Positions 39,708 through 60,825 of a stretch of DNA of 64,000 nt are shown one piece after another. The stretch is from Paenisporosarcina sp. HGH0030 (GTDB lineage: Bacteria; Bacillota; Bacilli; Bacillales_A; Planococcaceae). Made by a program: the position numbers and the translations under genes. The notes beneath the pieces are model-generated. The model saw only the letters and a program-made list of their open reading frames with translations, made no database searches and had not been told where the DNA came from. The stretch lies in assembly GCF_000411295.1 (NCBI RefSeq), contig NZ_KE150421.1, positions 373,324 through 437,323 on the forward strand. Reading direction: 5' to 3'. Within the stretch, counting starts at the first letter, position 1. Every line of letters starts with the position of its first letter.

Positions 39708-39801
39708 GCTGAAAAATATATATTTTTTATGCTTATGACTTTATAATGTCGAGAACAGGGTATGAGCGGTCCTAACCTGTTGTGGGTGAATGGTCTTATA
39801 C

Positions 39802-40845
39802 ATGAATGAATTACAGAATATTATTGAACAAAAAAGTGAAGAGTTGATTAATCGAGCAGTATTAGCACGGGCTTCTGATATTCATTTAATTCCTACATCA
39901 GGAGGGTATACAATTTATTTTCGCTTACACATAAAATTGGTCCCAGCAGGTAAGCTTCACCTGGACATCGGGGATCGTATGATTTCTTACTTCAAGTTTT
40001 TATCCTCTCTTGACATCAGTGAAAAACGAAAACCTCAAAGTGGTTCATTCCAACAAATCTTCAATACACAAGAATGTTCTTTCCGCGTTTCGACTTTACC
40101 ATCTGTTCAAAATAAAGAAAGTCTTGTAATTAGAATTCAATTGCATGATGATTCTAAACCATTACAAGAACTTGCTCTTTATCGTGATGCAGCTAAATTA
40201 CTGCATGACTTAATGATATCCCGTCAAGGTTTGATATGCATCACCGGACCAACTGGCTGTGGGAAAACGACAACTATGTACTCACTTACAAGTTATAGTA
40301 CGCATCAATTGAATCGGCATGTCATTTCCCTGGAAGACCCGGTGGAAAACAGTCAATCCCACTTGCTTCAAATACAAGTGAACGAACGTTCTGGAATTTC
40401 CTATGCTTCAGGTTTGAAAGCGATATTACGCCATTCGCCAGATGTCATAATGATTGGAGAAATTCGTGATTCAGAAACAGCCCAAGCAGCTGTTCAAGCA
40501 TCTTTAACAGGACATCTAGTTATTACGACTGTACATGCTAAGAATCCGATTGGATGTCTATATCGATTAATGGATTTGGGGATTCCGATTGATGACTTAC
40601 AACAATCTATTCTTGGAATTACAAGCCAACAACTAGTAATCACTTCATATGATAGGGAAGGAGATCGAGTAACGCCTAACCGCTCTTCTTTGTATGAAAT
40701 TCTGTATGGTCAAACTCTTGAAGAAGCAATCCATACGATAAAAATAGGTGGATCTTTTAACATGCCACAAAAGTATACGCTTTCCAATCAGTACGAGCGA
40801 GGAGTGAAACTGGGTGTCATTAAAGTTTCTCCCGTCACGTATTGA
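39802..40845 (+). CDS. comGA: Competence pseudopilus ATPase ComGA
   Basis: ComGA is the secretion/traffic ATPase that drives assembly of the competence pseudopilus for DNA uptake. Walker A GPTGCGKTTT, the Asp box SLEDPVE and Walker B IMIGEIRDSETAQ with HLVITTVHA are present; the N-terminal SDIHLIP motif fits. The start is ATG at 39802 or 39790. TATAAT at 39742-39747 is the likely -10, with an A/T-rich ComK-like box at 39713-39725. It is the first of seven overlapping comG genes. Confidence 0.94.
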   Translation: MNELQNIIEQKSEELINRAVLARASDIHLIPTSGGYTIYFRLHIKLVPAGKLHLDIGDRMISYFKFLSSLDISEKRKPQSGSFQQIFNTQECSFRVSTLPSVQNKESLVIRIQLHDDSKPLQELALYRDAAKLLHDLMISRQGLICITGPTGCGKTTTMYSLTSYSTHQLNRHVISLEDPVENSQSHLLQIQVNERSGISYASGLKAILRHSPDVIMIGEIRDSETAQAAVQASLTGHLVITTVHAKNPIGCLYRLMDLGIPIDDLQQSILGITSQQLVITSYDREGDRVTPNRSSLYEILYGQTLEEAIHTIKIGGSFNMPQKYTLSNQYERGVKLGVIKVSPVTY

Positions 40846-56505: not shown

Positions 56506-57066
56506 ATGATTTCTGTAAATGATTTTAAAACAGGTTTAACAATTGAAGTAGATGGCGGTATTTGGCGCGTACTTGATTTCCAACACGTGAAACCAGGTAA
56601 AGGTGCAGCGTTTGTTCGTTCTAAACTACGCAACATTCGTACAGGTGCAGTGAATGAAAAAACATTCCGTGCTGGAGAAAAAGTGGAGAAAGCTCAAATT
56701 GATAACCGCAAAATGCAGTATCTTTACGCAAATGGTGATACTCATAATTTCATGGATACTGACTCGTATGAACAAATTGAACTTGATTCAAAACAAATCG
56801 AGTACGAATTGAAATTCCTTCGTGAAAACATGGAAGTGCATATCATGCAATACCAAGGGGAAACGTTAGGTGTAGAATTGCCGAATACGGTTGTTTTGGA
56901 AGTTACTGAAACAGAACCTGGTATTAAAGGTGATACAGCTAGTGGCGGAACGAAACCTGCAATTTTGGAAACTGGATTATCAGTTCAAGTTCCTTTCTTC
57001 ATTAACCAAGGTGATAAACTGATCATCAACACATCTGAAGCGGCTTACGTTTCAAGAGCACAATAA
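56506..57066 (+). CDS. efp: Translation elongation factor P
   Basis: EF-P rescues ribosomes stalled on proline stretches. The 186-residue protein has the three-domain fold; Lys32 in [10 protein letters not shown] is the residue that carries 5-aminopentanol in B. subtilis, and the Pro-Gly-Lys context is kept. The C-terminal signature PGIKGDT is present. TGGAGGAA precedes the ATG. A family B repeat follows its stop. Confidence 0.97.
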
Positions 57067-57071
57067 TTAGA

Positions 57072-57169
57072 AAAGTGTAAAGTGCGCCTCTAGCCTGTCG
57101 TCGGCGTGGAGGGAAGGTTTCCTTTGCGACGAGTAACCGCAGGAGCAAGTGGGCGCTTGAAACTGGACA
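57072..57169 (+). repeat. Structured 3' repeat (family B), copy 2
   Basis: It runs from AAAGTGTAAAGTGCGCC to GGCGCTTGAAACTGGACA, the same boundaries as the copy after sodA. AAGTGCGCC pairs with GGGCGCTT and inner segments (GGTTTCC region, TGCG/CGCA) can also pair. The central 60 bp differs from copy 1, so ends and fold are kept better than the middle. Confidence 0.65.
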
Positions 57170-57236
57170 TACCATAAATTTTTAAGGAAGAAAATCCTTG
57201 AAAATTTATTACTTACCTAAATAATGAATAAAAAAT

Positions 57237-57277
57237 AAAGTTGCCAATTGCACCTAGTGCTATTGGCAACTTTTTTT
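57237..57277 (+). terminator. Terminator between efp and spoIIIAC
   Basis: AAAGTTGCCAAT and ATTGGCAACTTT form the stem with a CAC/GTG inner pair and seven T residues. It separates the efp transcript from the spoIIIA operon. Confidence 0.93.
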
Positions 57278-57305
57278 CATGTCTCAGCTTCTTTTTGCAT
57301 ACGAT
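57277..57305 (+). promoter_or_regulatory. Sigma-E-like promoter of the spoIIIA operon
   Basis: CATACGAT at 57298-57305 matches the sigma-E -10 (CATACAnT) at all but one position. TCATGTC at 57277-57283, 14 bp upstream, fits the -35 (KMATATT) at five of seven. It lies directly between the efp terminator and spoIIIAC, implying mother-cell expression of the operon. Confidence 0.65.
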
Positions 57306-57337
57306 GAATAGACAGAGGAGGGGACAAGTCGGAATTT

Positions 57338-57538
57338 ATGGATGTAATTCGAGTGGCAGGAATCGGATTGATTCTTGCATTGTTACACCTTTTCTTTGAA
57401 CAGACGGGGAAAAAAGAATTTTCATTCTTTTTATTTGTATTTGGGTATCTGTATATGACCGTGGAAATGTTACGTTTCCTACGTTTCTTCTTTCAAGAAA
57501 TCACTACTTTTTTCGAATGGCTTACCATTTCGGTGTAA
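57338..57538 (+). CDS. spoIIIAC: Stage III sporulation protein AC
   Basis: A 66-residue protein with two membrane helices. AGIGLILALLHLFFEQTGKKEF matches the AGVG...LHxxLxQxGKKEY pattern of SpoIIIAC. It is part of the mother-cell side of the SpoIIIA-SpoIIQ feeding channel that supports the engulfed forespore. It is the first gene of the operon here, whereas spoIIIAA and AB come first in B. subtilis. ATG at 57338 has GGAGGGG at a rather long distance. Confidence 0.85.
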   Translation: MDVIRVAGIGLILALLHLFFEQTGKKEFSFFLFVFGYLYMTVEMLRFLRFFFQEITTFFEWLTISV

Positions 57539-57541
57539 GTC

Positions 57542-57919
57542 ATGCAAATGATCCTGGTAACGATAGTAATCATATTTCTGATGTTGTTGCTTAAACAAAT
57601 CCTACCGCAATTTACACCTCTACTTTTGAGCTTTTTCTTTTTTATTTTACTCTCGAATATTTTATTTCAAACTCTTTTTCCAATCGTAAGAAACGTTCTT
57701 GAATCTGCACCTAAGGAAGCGCTCCCAATAGCCAGAGTATTGCTGATTTCTGTATTCGTGACATTTATAGGTGAAGCCTTGATTGAATGGTGCCGAAATT
57801 TAAATCTGAATACATTTGTTCCCATCATTTCGATAAGTTGTCATGTGTTGATTCTCACCTATTGGTTGCCTCTCATTCAGCAAATGTTTAACACGCTGAC
57901 GCGGCTATTGATCGAATAA
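57542..57919 (+). CDS. spoIIIAD: Stage III sporulation protein AD
   Basis: A 125-residue polytopic membrane protein with about four helices. The middle part (FIGEALIEWCRNLNLNTF) resembles the SpoIIIAD region facing the membrane interface. It is three bases after spoIIIAC. In B. subtilis it is about 133 residues and works with AC and AE in the channel. Assignment uses order, size and hydrophobicity; sequence is diverged. Confidence 0.8.
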   Translation: MQMILVTIVIIFLMLLLKQILPQFTPLLLSFFFFILLSNILFQTLFPIVRNVLESAPKEALPIARVLLISVFVTFIGEALIEWCRNLNLNTFVPIISISCHVLILTYWLPLIQQMFNTLTRLLIE

Positions 57920-57947
57920 TATAGGTGTAAAAGAGGTGAGAAGGTTC

Positions 57948-58850
57948 ATGCTTGAACCCTTGTATGCCTATTTTTTTGGTGTAACCCGATACTTTATCGT
58001 ACTGCTGATCGCTATTGTTTTTGCGATGATCATCGATATTTTATTTCCTGCAGCCAAACGATGGACAAGGTTATCCCTGTTTTGTATTGCTGTCCTGTAT
58101 ACATTGACGCCTGCCATTGATGCGATGCATATTATGCAGCAATTTGCGCGACAGATGGTGACGGTTTTTATGAGTGTCTACCCCGTGTTGACAGCGGGCT
58201 TGTTGATGAATAGTGGAACGATGGCATTTTCAATTTGGAACCCTGCGCTCTATGTATTTATTCAATTTACAGTGGTGCTGACCGAAAGAATCCTTATTCC
58301 ATTACTTATGACCACCATATTGCTGGACTTCATTAGTCGCTTTCATCCGGCTACCCCATTTTCAAAACTGACCGATATTATTCGCACTTCTTTACTAAGT
58401 ATCGTTTCAGCAGTAGTCGTCATTTATAGTTTTTTCATTTCGGTGCAAGGGTTTATTTCTTGGAATATCTCAAGTGCTGTTACGGAGCCCATCAAAAAAA
58501 TCATTCAGCAAAACATCCCGTTTGTTGGTTCTTTTTTTTCTGAGAGTCTTAGTACATTTACTCGATTTTCTTCTTCAATCACTTCGATTACTGGCGGTGG
58601 CATTGCCATCACAATCCTACTGGTTGTGTTGATCCCTACTTTGAAAACCATCAGTATCGCGTTTTGCTATCGAGTAGTGGCTGCCATTATTGAACCATTC
58701 GGACCAGAGGATCTGGCCAGTTTTCTTGATGATATCGGAAAGTCGATTTTCGTTTTAAGTATCTTGTCATTTCTTATTGCCTTTGCGTTTTTCTATACAG
58801 CCATTTTCATTGTGATATTAGTAAAATTCTCCATGATGATGAGGGGTTAA
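57948..58850 (+). CDS. spoIIIAE: Stage III sporulation protein AE (short form)
   Basis: The 300-residue membrane protein has about seven hydrophobic segments. FIQFTVVLTERILIPLLM and VIEPFGPEDLASFLDDIGKS-like regions fit SpoIIIAE. B. subtilis SpoIIIAE has about 399 residues with an N-terminal signal peptide and an extracellular stretch; those roughly 90-100 residues are missing here. ATG at 57948 follows GAGGTGAGAAGG. The length comparison is from memory. Confidence 0.8.
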   Translation: MLEPLYAYFFGVTRYFIVLLIAIVFAMIIDILFPAAKRWTRLSLFCIAVLYTLTPAIDAMHIMQQFARQMVTVFMSVYPVLTAGLLMNSGTMAFSIWNPALYVFIQFTVVLTERILIPLLMTTILLDFISRFHPATPFSKLTDIIRTSLLSIVSAVVVIYSFFISVQGFISWNISSAVTEPIKKIIQQNIPFVGSFFSESLSTFTRFSSSITSITGGGIAITILLVVLIPTLKTISIAFCYRVVAAIIEPFGPEDLASFLDDIGKSIFVLSILSFLIAFAFFYTAIFIVILVKFSMMMRG

Positions 58851-58852
58851 TG

Positions 58853-59014
58853 ATGGCTGAATGGTTAAAGGGATTAATGTTCATTATTCTGCTGAGTGAA
58901 GTTCTTCAGGCTATCTTCCAGAAGTCTGATTCAAATGAAAAGATAGAAGAATATACGAAGCTGGGACTTGCCATGTACATGTTATTGTTTATCTCTTCTT
59001 TTTTCTATGAATAG
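58853..59014 (+). CDS. spoIIIAF: Very short SpoIIIAF-like protein
   Basis: Between AE and AG a 53-codon gene starts at 58853 (GAGGGG six bases before) and stops at 59014. It encodes two hydrophobic helices joined by a charged linker (QKSDSNEKIEEYTK), with EWL near the start as in SpoIIIAF. The soluble domain of normal SpoIIIAF (about 206 residues) is absent. Either a functional minimal anchor or a remnant. Confidence 0.6.
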   Translation: MAEWLKGLMFIILLSEVLQAIFQKSDSNEKIEEYTKLGLAMYMLLFISSFFYE

Positions 59015-59070
59015 TTGAGGAATGCTTGTCATATAGTTTATCAAATGCCTGTCTCACTTAAGAGAGGAGC

Positions 59071-59511
59071 GTGATTCCATCCATTAAAACGAATCGAATG
59101 AAAAGCGGGATCCTGCTCGCGAGTCTCTTGGTATTCATGGTGTTTTTCTTACTGAATGAATCCATTTTCACCAAGCAACCTAACACATCCAGTCAGTCAC
59201 AAGATGCAGTAACGCTGGAACACTCATTGAAAACGGCATTGGAAAAAATGGCTGGGGTAGGTGAAGTCGAATTATTTTTTTACACAGGCATGAACGAGCC
59301 TCAACAAACAGTTACGGAAAAACCTAGCTTTGCCTTGTTTGATCAGACAACCAATGAGCAAAAAACTATTCAATCAGTATTGGTAGTAGCCACTGGAGCA
59401 GATCAAGCAAAAACCAGAATTATGTTAAAAGAATACTTAGCAGCAGTATTATTACTGCCAGAACATCGAATTGTCGTCGTCCCGATGGATGAGAAAGGGG
59501 TTTCTAAATGA
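59071..59511 (+). CDS. spoIIIAG: Stage III sporulation protein AG (short form)
   Basis: A single membrane helix (GILLASLLVFMVFFLL) precedes a ring-building motif domain: LEHSLKTALEKMAGVGEVELFF and VLVVATGADQAKTRIML with LPEHRIVVVPM at the end, as in SpoIIIAG. It is 146 residues against about 229 in B. subtilis; the loss falls mostly in the beta-rich insertion between the two halves of the domain. The GTG at 59071 is very close to GAGAGGAG, so the exact start is uncertain. Its stop overlaps the spoIIIAH ATG. Confidence 0.82.
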   Translation: MIPSIKTNRMKSGILLASLLVFMVFFLLNESIFTKQPNTSSQSQDAVTLEHSLKTALEKMAGVGEVELFFYTGMNEPQQTVTEKPSFALFDQTTNEQKTIQSVLVVATGADQAKTRIMLKEYLAAVLLLPEHRIVVVPMDEKGVSK

Positions 59512-60050
59512 AAGTCAAAAAACGTACAGTATGGATGCTAACTCTATTAAGTTTGGTAGCAGTAATTTCGGTGTATTACGTGAACGAACCTAACAATATG
59601 CCCTTTGATGGTTTAGCTATTTTCTCAGATGAAGACCTTGATCAAATGAAGGTCGAAGACACAACTGAAGATGAATCAGTTACACCAGTATATGCTCAAA
59701 GTGCGTTATTTGAAGAAATGAGAATGGAATTACTAAACGAACGCAGTGAGTTGAAAACACAATTAACAACACAAATTGCGTCAAACGAAATGTCGGCTGA
59801 TGAAGTAAATGAAGCTTACTCAACTATTAACGATTTAACAGTACGCGAATCAACGGAAGCAATGCTTGAAATGCTCATTCGTTCACTAGGTTACTCAGAT
59901 GCCTATGTACAGACAGATACAGGGAAAGTAGATGTAACTGTAATCGCTGATGAACTTGGAAAATCACAAGCAAATGAAATTATTCACATCGTAATGAAAC
60001 AATGGGAAGATGCAAAAAAAGTAACGGTAGCATTCCAACCAGCTTCATAA
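59508..60050 (+). CDS. spoIIIAH: Stage III sporulation protein AH
   Basis: The 180-residue protein has an N-terminal anchor (TVWMLTLLSLVAVISVYYV, strikingly like B. subtilis) and a C-terminal YscJ/FliF-like domain with EEMRMELLNERSELK and ESTEAMLEMLIRSLGYSDAYV. In B. subtilis it crosses the space between membranes and binds SpoIIQ of the forespore. The linker is shorter than in B. subtilis but the domain is complete. It ends the operon. Confidence 0.9.
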   Translation: MKVKKRTVWMLTLLSLVAVISVYYVNEPNNMPFDGLAIFSDEDLDQMKVEDTTEDESVTPVYAQSALFEEMRMELLNERSELKTQLTTQIASNEMSADEVNEAYSTINDLTVRESTEAMLEMLIRSLGYSDAYVQTDTGKVDVTVIADELGKSQANEIIHIVMKQWEDAKKVTVAFQPAS

Positions 60051-60082: not shown

Positions 60083-60125
60083 CATTTTTCTTAACAAAAC
60101 CATGCCGGATTAAAATCGAATCATT

Positions 60126-60180
60126 GCTCCTGCGGTTATTCGTCGCAAAGGAAACCTTGTTTATCAACGCCGGTGTCAGA
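60126..60180 (-). repeat. Truncated inverted copy of repeat family B
   Basis: GCTCCTGCGGTTATTCGTCG and the following CAAAGGAAACCTT are the reverse complement of the central part of the copy at 57072-57169 with few changes. Both outer ends are missing. The rest of 60083-60312 shows no gene. Confidence 0.7.
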
Positions 60181-60312: not shown

Positions 60313-60825
60313 ATGTTAAAAGTACAAGAAATTCGTGAAATTATTAAATTAATTGACCACTCATCCATTGATGAGTTTATTTACGAGTCAGAAGGCACGA
60401 AAGTTAAACTGAAAAAGAATGGTGTACATGTATCTACTGAAACAGTTGTACCTCAATCAAAACCAGCGGCACCTGCTGTTGAAGCTCCAGTGGCAGTAGA
60501 AGTGAATCCAACACCGGTTGCTCAAACTGTAAAAGAAACAATTGCAAATGTAGAGACGAAAGAATCAGCTGTTAATGATGAATCTCTTCTTAAAATTTCT
60601 TCACCAATGGTAGGAACTTTCTATCAGTCATCTTCACCGGATACACCGGCATATGTTCAAGTAGGTGATAAAGTAACAGAAGACGGGATTGTATGTATTG
60701 TGGAAGCGATGAAATTATTCAACGAAATCGAAGCAGAAGTGTCTGGCGAGATTGTAGAAATTTTAGTAAAAGATGGACAACTCGTAGAGTACGGCCAACC
60801 TCTGTTCTTAGTAAAAGCGAACTGA
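60313..60825 (+). CDS. accB: Biotin carboxyl carrier protein of acetyl-CoA carboxylase
   Basis: AccB carries the biotin that shuttles carboxyl groups in the first step of fatty acid synthesis. Lys134 in [10 protein letters not shown] is biotinylated. A Pro/Ala/Val-rich flexible linker (residues about 50-85) joins the N-terminal part to the biotinyl domain. Length 170 is normal. AGGGGAG precedes the ATG. It is followed at once by accC. Confidence 0.96.

Follow-up and report, generated by a model that had tools for sequence, protein, structure and literature searches.

How can the channel between the mother cell and the spore be preserved when the ATPase of its operon is missing? This question is raised by the spoIIIA operon in a stretch of 64,000 nucleotides (the window) from Paenisporosarcina sp. 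HGH0030, the source genome of which has 3.52 Mb and is 99.8% complete. An earlier note on this DNA had described six consecutive frames ordered from spoIIIAC to spoIIIAH, with no spoIIIAA or spoIIIAB ahead of them, and had noted that SpoIIIAA is needed for sporulation in Bacillus subtilis, where all four of its ATPase motifs are indeed reported to be required (PMC2703783). The six frames were confirmed between efp and accB, in the order efp, AC, AD, AE, AF remnant, AG, AH and accB (genes and proteins are named here by their last letters); all are open and consecutive, and the start given for the operon, 57277, lies 61 bp ahead of the AC start codon. Across 151 genomes, our results demonstrate that AA and AB have truly been lost, and throughout the Planococcaceae. 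The reduced feeding channel proposed in the earlier note was understated, as AF, AE and AG are trimmed as well.

Loss of SpoIIIAA and SpoIIIAB in the Planococcaceae

Neither AA nor AB lies in the 271 bp that separate efp from AC, as had been claimed. Local hidden Markov models (HMMs) were built from 20 outgroup AA proteins and 19 outgroup AB proteins, and both recovered all 20 control loci, the same ones from which they were built. The AA HMM gave just two matches in the window, one to ComGA (frame 39790-40845, 21.8 bits) and one to an ABC-type ATPase (E 0.13, 10.5 bits). Across the whole genome of the window, the search for AA returned two weak matches, the better one scoring 23.5 bits where the cut-off is 281.3, and no match to AB was obtained. 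The same was observed throughout the family, where SpoIIIAA did not score above cut-off in any of the 151 Planococcaceae genomes (weak generic-ATPase matches in 144, the best at 29.3 bits) and neither did SpoIIIAB (one match of 21.8 bits); in the B. subtilis control, both proteins were above cut-off. SpoIIIAA was likewise above cut-off in none of 200 genomes drawn at the order level, all of them Planococcaceae that overlap the 151 and add no outgroup. Among 108 Planococcaceae loci, some of which share a genome and the shortest of which extends only ~1.5 kb beyond AE, the best E-values were 1 for the AA HMM and 2 for the AB HMM. Relocation of the two genes, which the earlier note had offered as an explanation, was rejected, given that the profile searches of the genome itself, the 151 genomes and the loci were all without them; it is excluded as far as the profiles reach.

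The gap between efp and AC varied from 145 to 2705 bp among the 18 loci read. A frame of at least 170 amino acids (aa) was present in 10 of the 18, and in seven of those loci the gap frames were 333-339 aa long, near the size of AA. Judged by eye, these seven (L040-L042, L044, L045, L048 and L049, from other genera) are nitronate-monooxygenase-like and occupy the place of AA and AB; other gap frames were seen at L051, L053 and L054, and DoxX-like and VWA/TerD-like frames, also named by eye, are among those found in the gaps. A diverged AA or AB concealed in the longer gaps of other genera was considered and rejected, since the AA and AB HMMs gave the gap frames no score.

The loss of AA and AB marks the Planococcaceae as sampled, and the spore-formers of the family persist. 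AE was present in 114 of the 151 genomes and absent from 37. SpoIVA scored above cut-off in 113, every one of them AE-positive, while the 114th AE-positive genome (G099) carried a piece of SpoIVA at a contig end. Endospore formation has been described for Lysinibacillus, Sporosarcina and some Solibacillus and Ureibacillus species (PMC6971209), and all four genera are among the named loci that carry the operon. In genus g2, three genomes (G001, G038 and G054) had broken SpoIVA pieces and no AE and a fourth (G020) had both, which is a recent loss of sporulation genes inside one genus.

A draw of 121 genomes from the class contained AE in 92, of which 6 were Planococcaceae. The 86 AE-positive genomes from outside the family all carried AA (84 above cut-off, two at ~217 bits), and AA without AE was seen in G262. 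With the SpoIIIAA profile, 87 of the 112 genomes sampled from other families gave AA matches of 217-413 bits. The AE scores formed two separate ranges, 67-129 bits in the Planococcaceae and 221-375 bits outside. The pairing of AA with AE outside the Planococcaceae need not be universal, given reports of a gain of the other spoIIIA genes without AA, AB and AF in Erysipelotrichia and of AA in the absence of AC and AE in Jeotgalibacillus malaysiensis D5 (PMC7924749); our draw may hold few such lineages.

Trimming, divergence and selection of the retained genes

The operon genes, efp, accB, the terminator-like repeat and the putative promoter described below lie on the + strand. The membrane core is present, with AC (57338..57538, 66 aa; PF06686, 26.2 bits), the strongly diverged AD (57542..57919, 125 aa; PF06686, 25 bits, cut-off 24 in both cases) and AE (57936..58850, 304 aa; PF09546, 109.5 bits) all above their Pfam cut-offs. 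AH (59508..60050, 180 aa; PF12685, 87.8 bits) matched the B. subtilis SpoIIIAH structure 3uz0_A at E 4e-17. Under the NCBI equivalog cut-offs, AC, AE and AG fell short, and AD and AH had no match to any spoIIIA model there. Automatic annotation of these five genes in the Planococcaceae may therefore miss or misname them, and the low scores of AC, AE and AG may account for annotation losing these genes.

The description of six intact genes held for the reading frames and failed for the domains. Lengths were compared between 50 Planococcaceae loci and 20 outgroup loci. The AF frame of the window (58850..59014) encodes 54 aa, a two-helix N-terminal hairpin without the ring-building domain, and had no protein family match; AF measures ~40-60 aa in the Planococcaceae and 206-258 aa in the 20 outgroup loci. 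In an hhalign comparison, the remnant aligned with roughly the first 51 residues of AF from the outgroup (probability 93.9, 10% identity); this compares two profiles only, and its input contained at least one wrong-frame pick (L049) that was taken out afterwards. Helical hairpins can score through their composition, and the assignment leans much on length and operon position. A similar frame was found in all 50 Planococcaceae loci, a partly circular count in that 41 of the 50 seeded the model. A model of the AF ring domain found 20 of 20 controls, and in no Planococcaceae locus was its E-value lower than 0.05. The AF of the window is a remnant membrane hairpin and not a full SpoIIIAF.

AE retains its membrane part and lacks an N-terminal region of ~90 residues. 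Its median length was 303 aa in the Planococcaceae against 397.5 aa in the outgroup; ahead of the position of residue 3 of the window AE, outgroup proteins carry 81-121 residues (median 91.5) and Planococcaceae proteins 0-34 (median 1). A structure model of AE, with a predicted local distance difference test (pLDDT) score of 73, gave no significant structural match (best E 0.39).

AG (59071..59511, 146 aa) consists of one membrane helix and a predicted ring-building fold, the large insertion of which is reduced to a loop; it scored 44.2 bits against TIGR02830, under the cut-off of 147.7. The median length was 140 aa in 41 Planococcaceae and 212.5 aa in 20 outgroup sequences, counting only those of more than 100 aa, and the insert comprises 26 residues in the window, 12-30 in the Planococcaceae and 58-59 in the outgroup. 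In the AlphaFold model (mean pLDDT 71, core blocks ~90), the membrane helix is followed by a helix-strand-strand-helix-strand order, and a low-confidence loop at ~73-99 stands at the place of the long insertion in solved SpoIIIAG. Foldseek ranked MxiJ, PrgK and FliF best (E from 9.3e-4) and SpoIIIAG 5wc3 at 6.8e-3, with a single match below E 0.001 and template modelling (TM) scores by query length of ~0.4. The best matches are the ring-building domains of type III secretion and flagellar inner-membrane rings, a likeness of fold only. Modelling thus indicates that AG retains its ring-building fold.

The apparent starts of AF and AG were compared in thirteen Psychrobacillus-type loci (L104, L106-L115, L117 and L154). 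The AG frame was located in 12 of them, in all of which the same position is taken by an ATT, ATC or ATA codon, and no ATG, GTG or TTG occurred ahead of the membrane helix in eight of the 12; P. insolitus (L014) has ATG at that position. The AF remnant showed an ATA overlapping the AE stop in six of the 13. Near-cognate starts of two adjacent genes, kept across species, would be unusual.

Divergence was concentrated in the membrane core. Mean identities within the outgroup, between Planococcaceae and outgroup, and within the Planococcaceae (18 loci on each side) were 0.59/0.23/0.68 for AC, 0.65/0.14/0.29 for AD, 0.53/0.18/0.35 for AE, 0.39/0.23/0.34 for AG, 0.31/0.28/0.55 for AH and 0.55/0.55/0.67 for AccB. 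The AccB tree had no clean Planococcaceae clade, and AccB was therefore used through identities only. Relative to the mean outgroup distance, the stem branch of the family measured 2.12 for AC, 2.83 for AD, 2.09 for AE, 1.01 for AG and 0.28 for AH.

Selection was assessed by the ratio of nonsynonymous to synonymous substitution rates (dN/dS). Between the window and L020, the ratios were 0.03 for AC, 0.05 for AD, 0.02 for AE, 0.08 for AF, 0.31 for AG and 0.16 for AH; some dS values were saturated, the comparison with L016 was nearly without changes, and only L020 was informative for all six genes. Within the genus, AD gave 0.04-0.08 where finite, and neither frameshifts nor relaxed dN/dS were seen among the five strains of the genus compared. 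In the genus, purifying selection acts on each of the six genes, even on the AF remnant of 54 aa, which supports the earlier view of an operon maintained rather than rotting. The pattern is one of remodelling followed by renewed purifying selection, not of decay. We infer that the burst on the stem was simultaneous with the gene and domain losses, because both map to the same stem.

Surroundings of the operon and sporulation partners

The named relatives closest at the spoIIIA locus are Paenisporosarcina, with 98% AE identity to P. quisquiliarum, although very near records were possibly omitted from the search. The left neighbour efp (56506..57066; TIGR00038, 265.8 bits) and the right neighbour accB (60313..60825; TIGR00531, 170.7 bits) both score above cut-off. 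An inverted repeat followed by a T run (57233..57277; 21-nt arms, 90% complementary, 3-nt loop) lies 3' of efp and resembles a terminator; stem-loops judged similar by eye occur at L016, L020, L057 and L058, and the element is not among the listings of the consensus scan. A putative sigma-E promoter, TTTCATGT ... GCATACGAT (57275..57305), lies 5' of AC, and GCATACGAT is kept, by eye, in L015, L016, L020, L057 and L058. The conserved CATACGAT block upstream of AC is what we take, from the sigma-E consensus, to be this putative promoter.

The operon is flanked by a pair of 35-nt inverted repeats (57114-57148 and 60124-60158, 97% complementary), the core of which has just two copies in the window when up to 3 mismatches are allowed. 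In L016, another genome of the same species, the downstream copy is kept, the stretch between efp and AC has 66 nt fewer and the upstream copy is incomplete; the repeat element is therefore polymorphic.

The SpoIIIAH-SpoIIQ pair is present in the genome of the window. SpoIIQ, encoded next to SpoIID and SpoIIID, has 220 aa and scores 173.9 bits with NF053738, under the cut-off of 250; it matches 3tuf_B at E 9.5e-26, and its C-terminal end is ~60 residues short of the crystallised B. subtilis chain. SpoIIM was above cut-off in none of the 151 genomes, and its four weak matches all fall in AE-negative genomes of genus g10. GerM gave no PF10646 match in the window genome; weak candidate PF10646 matches occurred in 32 of the 151 genomes, some of them AE-negative; 20 were above cut-off, and in 30 the matching frame was 403-471 aa long. 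At L069 (1243-2389, same genome), two proteins are encoded immediately 5' of an apparent rplU, a degenerate M23 protein of 186 aa and one of 200 aa that is membrane protease-like. Judged by eye, the pair resembles SpoIVFA and SpoIVFB in place and sequence, and neither has an NCBI family match.

Explanations for the reduced complex and its significance

The B. subtilis SpoIIIAA-AH:SpoIIQ (A-Q) complex shares AC, AD, AE, AG with its ring-building fold, AH and SpoIIQ with the system of this genome. The gene order is also the same, and accB lies downstream in 18 of the 20 outgroup loci too. Relative to the B. subtilis complex, the system of this genome is without AA, AB, the AF ring, the N-terminal region of AE and most of the AG barrel insertion; its SpoIIQ has 220 residues, and GerM and SpoIIM were not found in the window genome.

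The absence of the AA, AB and AF genes in Planococcaceae genera is known already. A reduced spoIIIA set in Sporosarcina, Lysinibacillus, Solibacillus and Paenisporosarcina was reported in PLoS One in 2021 (PMC7924749), with AC-AD-AE-AG-AH-SpoIIQ as the Sporosarcina signature and AA, AB, AF, SpoIIM, SpoIIB and GerM missing in these spore-formers; of the mechanism, it is said that it 'remains to be elucidated'. For Lysinibacillus sphaericus C3-41, the absence of AA, AB, AD and AF was reported in 2012 (PMC3533761), where that genome was for this reason deemed insufficiently reliable, whereas the 151 genomes analysed here establish a genuine and family-wide loss of AA and AB. The gene set and the missing AA and AB of the earlier note therefore stand, with less surprise attached to them, as the gene absence was already in print for the family. 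Our results differ from the 2021 report in that it scores AF as absent, whereas a remnant of ~40-60 aa is present; it also scores AD as absent in five species and in one place lists AG as absent too. The trimming of AE and AG, the stem divergence and the selection are not mentioned in the accessible parts of that report, the main text of which contains neither 'truncated' nor 'shorter'. In full-text literature searches, we found neither the AF remnant nor the trimming of AE and AG nor the burst on the stem described; a 2022 survey (PMC9210971) may describe domain-level trimming.

From the observed gene content, domain trimming, Planococcaceae-wide distribution, purifying selection in the genus and co-occurrence with SpoIVA, we consider it fairly probable that an ancestral, co-adapted slimming led to an ATPase-free core of AC, AD and AE with AG and AH rings and SpoIIQ, which acts as a passive channel or scaffold. 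The Planococcaceae ancestor would have lost spoIIIAA and spoIIIAB, and around the same time the mother-cell half of the A-Q complex would have been rebuilt: AF would have been reduced to a membrane hairpin, the N-terminal region of AE and most of the barrel-forming insertion of AG would have been lost, and AC, AD and AE would have been rewritten. The remaining parts are the AC/AD/AE membrane core with the AF hairpin, rings of AG and of AH and, on the side of the forespore, SpoIIQ. We propose that they would span the two membranes as one assembly and support the forespore with no secretion-type ATPase of their own, acting as a conduit that is passive or driven by a gradient, or in part as a scaffold joining both membranes. 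More tentatively, and with the balance leaning somewhat against it, the A-Q complex of the ancestor may have been an ATP-driven apparatus of large bore that became a small channel working passively, with all losses forming one coordinated event and the burst in AC, AD and AE representing a membrane core re-tuned for motor-free work. Several points weigh against the slimming explanation. The assembly of the complex, its ATPase-free working, its cargo and the single event of loss and rewriting are all things that we infer. In B. subtilis, sigma-G activity and the integrity of the forespore depend on the ATPase motifs of SpoIIIAA, all four of which are required (PMC2703783), and sporulation falls to 0.001-0.003% when AA or AB is deleted (PMC12720343), a requirement that makes an unrelated replacement ATPase plausible. 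AH, the least changed protein on the stem, would also fit a purely structural role.

A replacement for SpoIIIAA would leave the channel ATP-driven, either by ComGA, which belongs to the same secretion ATPase superfamily, or by an unrelated AAA protein. The essential role of the SpoIIIAA ATPase in B. subtilis (PMC2703783, PMC12720343) favours such a substitution, and candidates are at hand: PF00437 secretion-type ATPases occur in 149 of the 151 Planococcaceae genomes, with five matches in the window genome and ComGA within the window itself (39802-40842; NF041000, 343.5 bits). Their number, however, showed no link to the channel, with a mean of 3.22 in the 114 AE-positive and 2.95 in the 37 AE-negative genomes, counts in which orthologues are pooled and scoring extended to the 12 best candidates of each genome. 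Ten AE-positive genomes had a single PF00437 match each among those 12 candidates. The one inspected, in G018, lies 22 kb away from the operon in a frame of 345 aa and resembles ComGA in length and place; if the single matches are ComGA, a stand-in from the secretion ATPase superfamily would have to come from the competence gene comGA. The presumed partner of the ATPase, AB, was lost too. Substitution by a co-occurring secretion ATPase is not supported by this search, which covered the PF00437 superfamily, and we regard a replacement ATPase of any kind as unlikely. Somewhat less likely still is that the conduit function is gone, with the AH-SpoIIQ zipper joining the mother-cell and forespore membranes during engulfment and the remainder serving as a scaffold. 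The short AH stem (0.28 of the outgroup spread) and the retained SpoIIQ agree with a zipper, which might matter more in a family where SpoIIM is above cut-off in none of the 151 genomes. Yet dN/dS is lowest in AC and AE of the membrane core (0.02-0.03), and AC shows 68% identity among Planococcaceae, which would be needless for a mere scaffold, and direct contact between AH and SpoIIQ is itself reported to be dispensable in B. subtilis (PMC12720343).

That AA and AB are present and too diverged or relocated for detection is largely refuted and, in our view, very improbable. In its favour, AC and AE have themselves diverged below the NCBI cut-offs, as AA could have, and gap frames of at least 170 aa were seen at 10 of the 18 loci read, at seven of which their length (333-339 aa) is near that of AA; however, those frames look unrelated by eye, with best E-values of 1 (AA) and 2 (AB), and nothing above 29.3 bits was found in 151 genomes by a profile that yields 217-413 bits in 87 of 112 genomes of other families. 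We give almost no credence to a decaying operon in a lineage that is losing sporulation. In its favour, AE is absent from 37 of the 151 genomes and SpoIVA is broken in three of the four genus g2 genomes, but the six frames are open in the genus, dN/dS is far below 1 for all of them, AF remnant included, and SpoIVA is above cut-off in 113 of the 114 AE-positive genomes.

Co-adapted slimming thus remains the explanation that we favour. The role of the A-Q complex and its need for an ATPase are an open question of sporulation, which deletions in B. subtilis hardly answer because each loss gives equally low sporulation: removal of AA, AB, AC together with AD, AE or AG in each case reduces it to 0.001-0.003% (PMC12720343). 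Spore-formers that manage without AA, AB, the ring of AF and the barrel insertion of AG represent a natural minimal set that shows which parts to swap. With a mother cell-spore channel that is trimmed yet preserved, the Planococcaceae provide a natural test of how the channel works.

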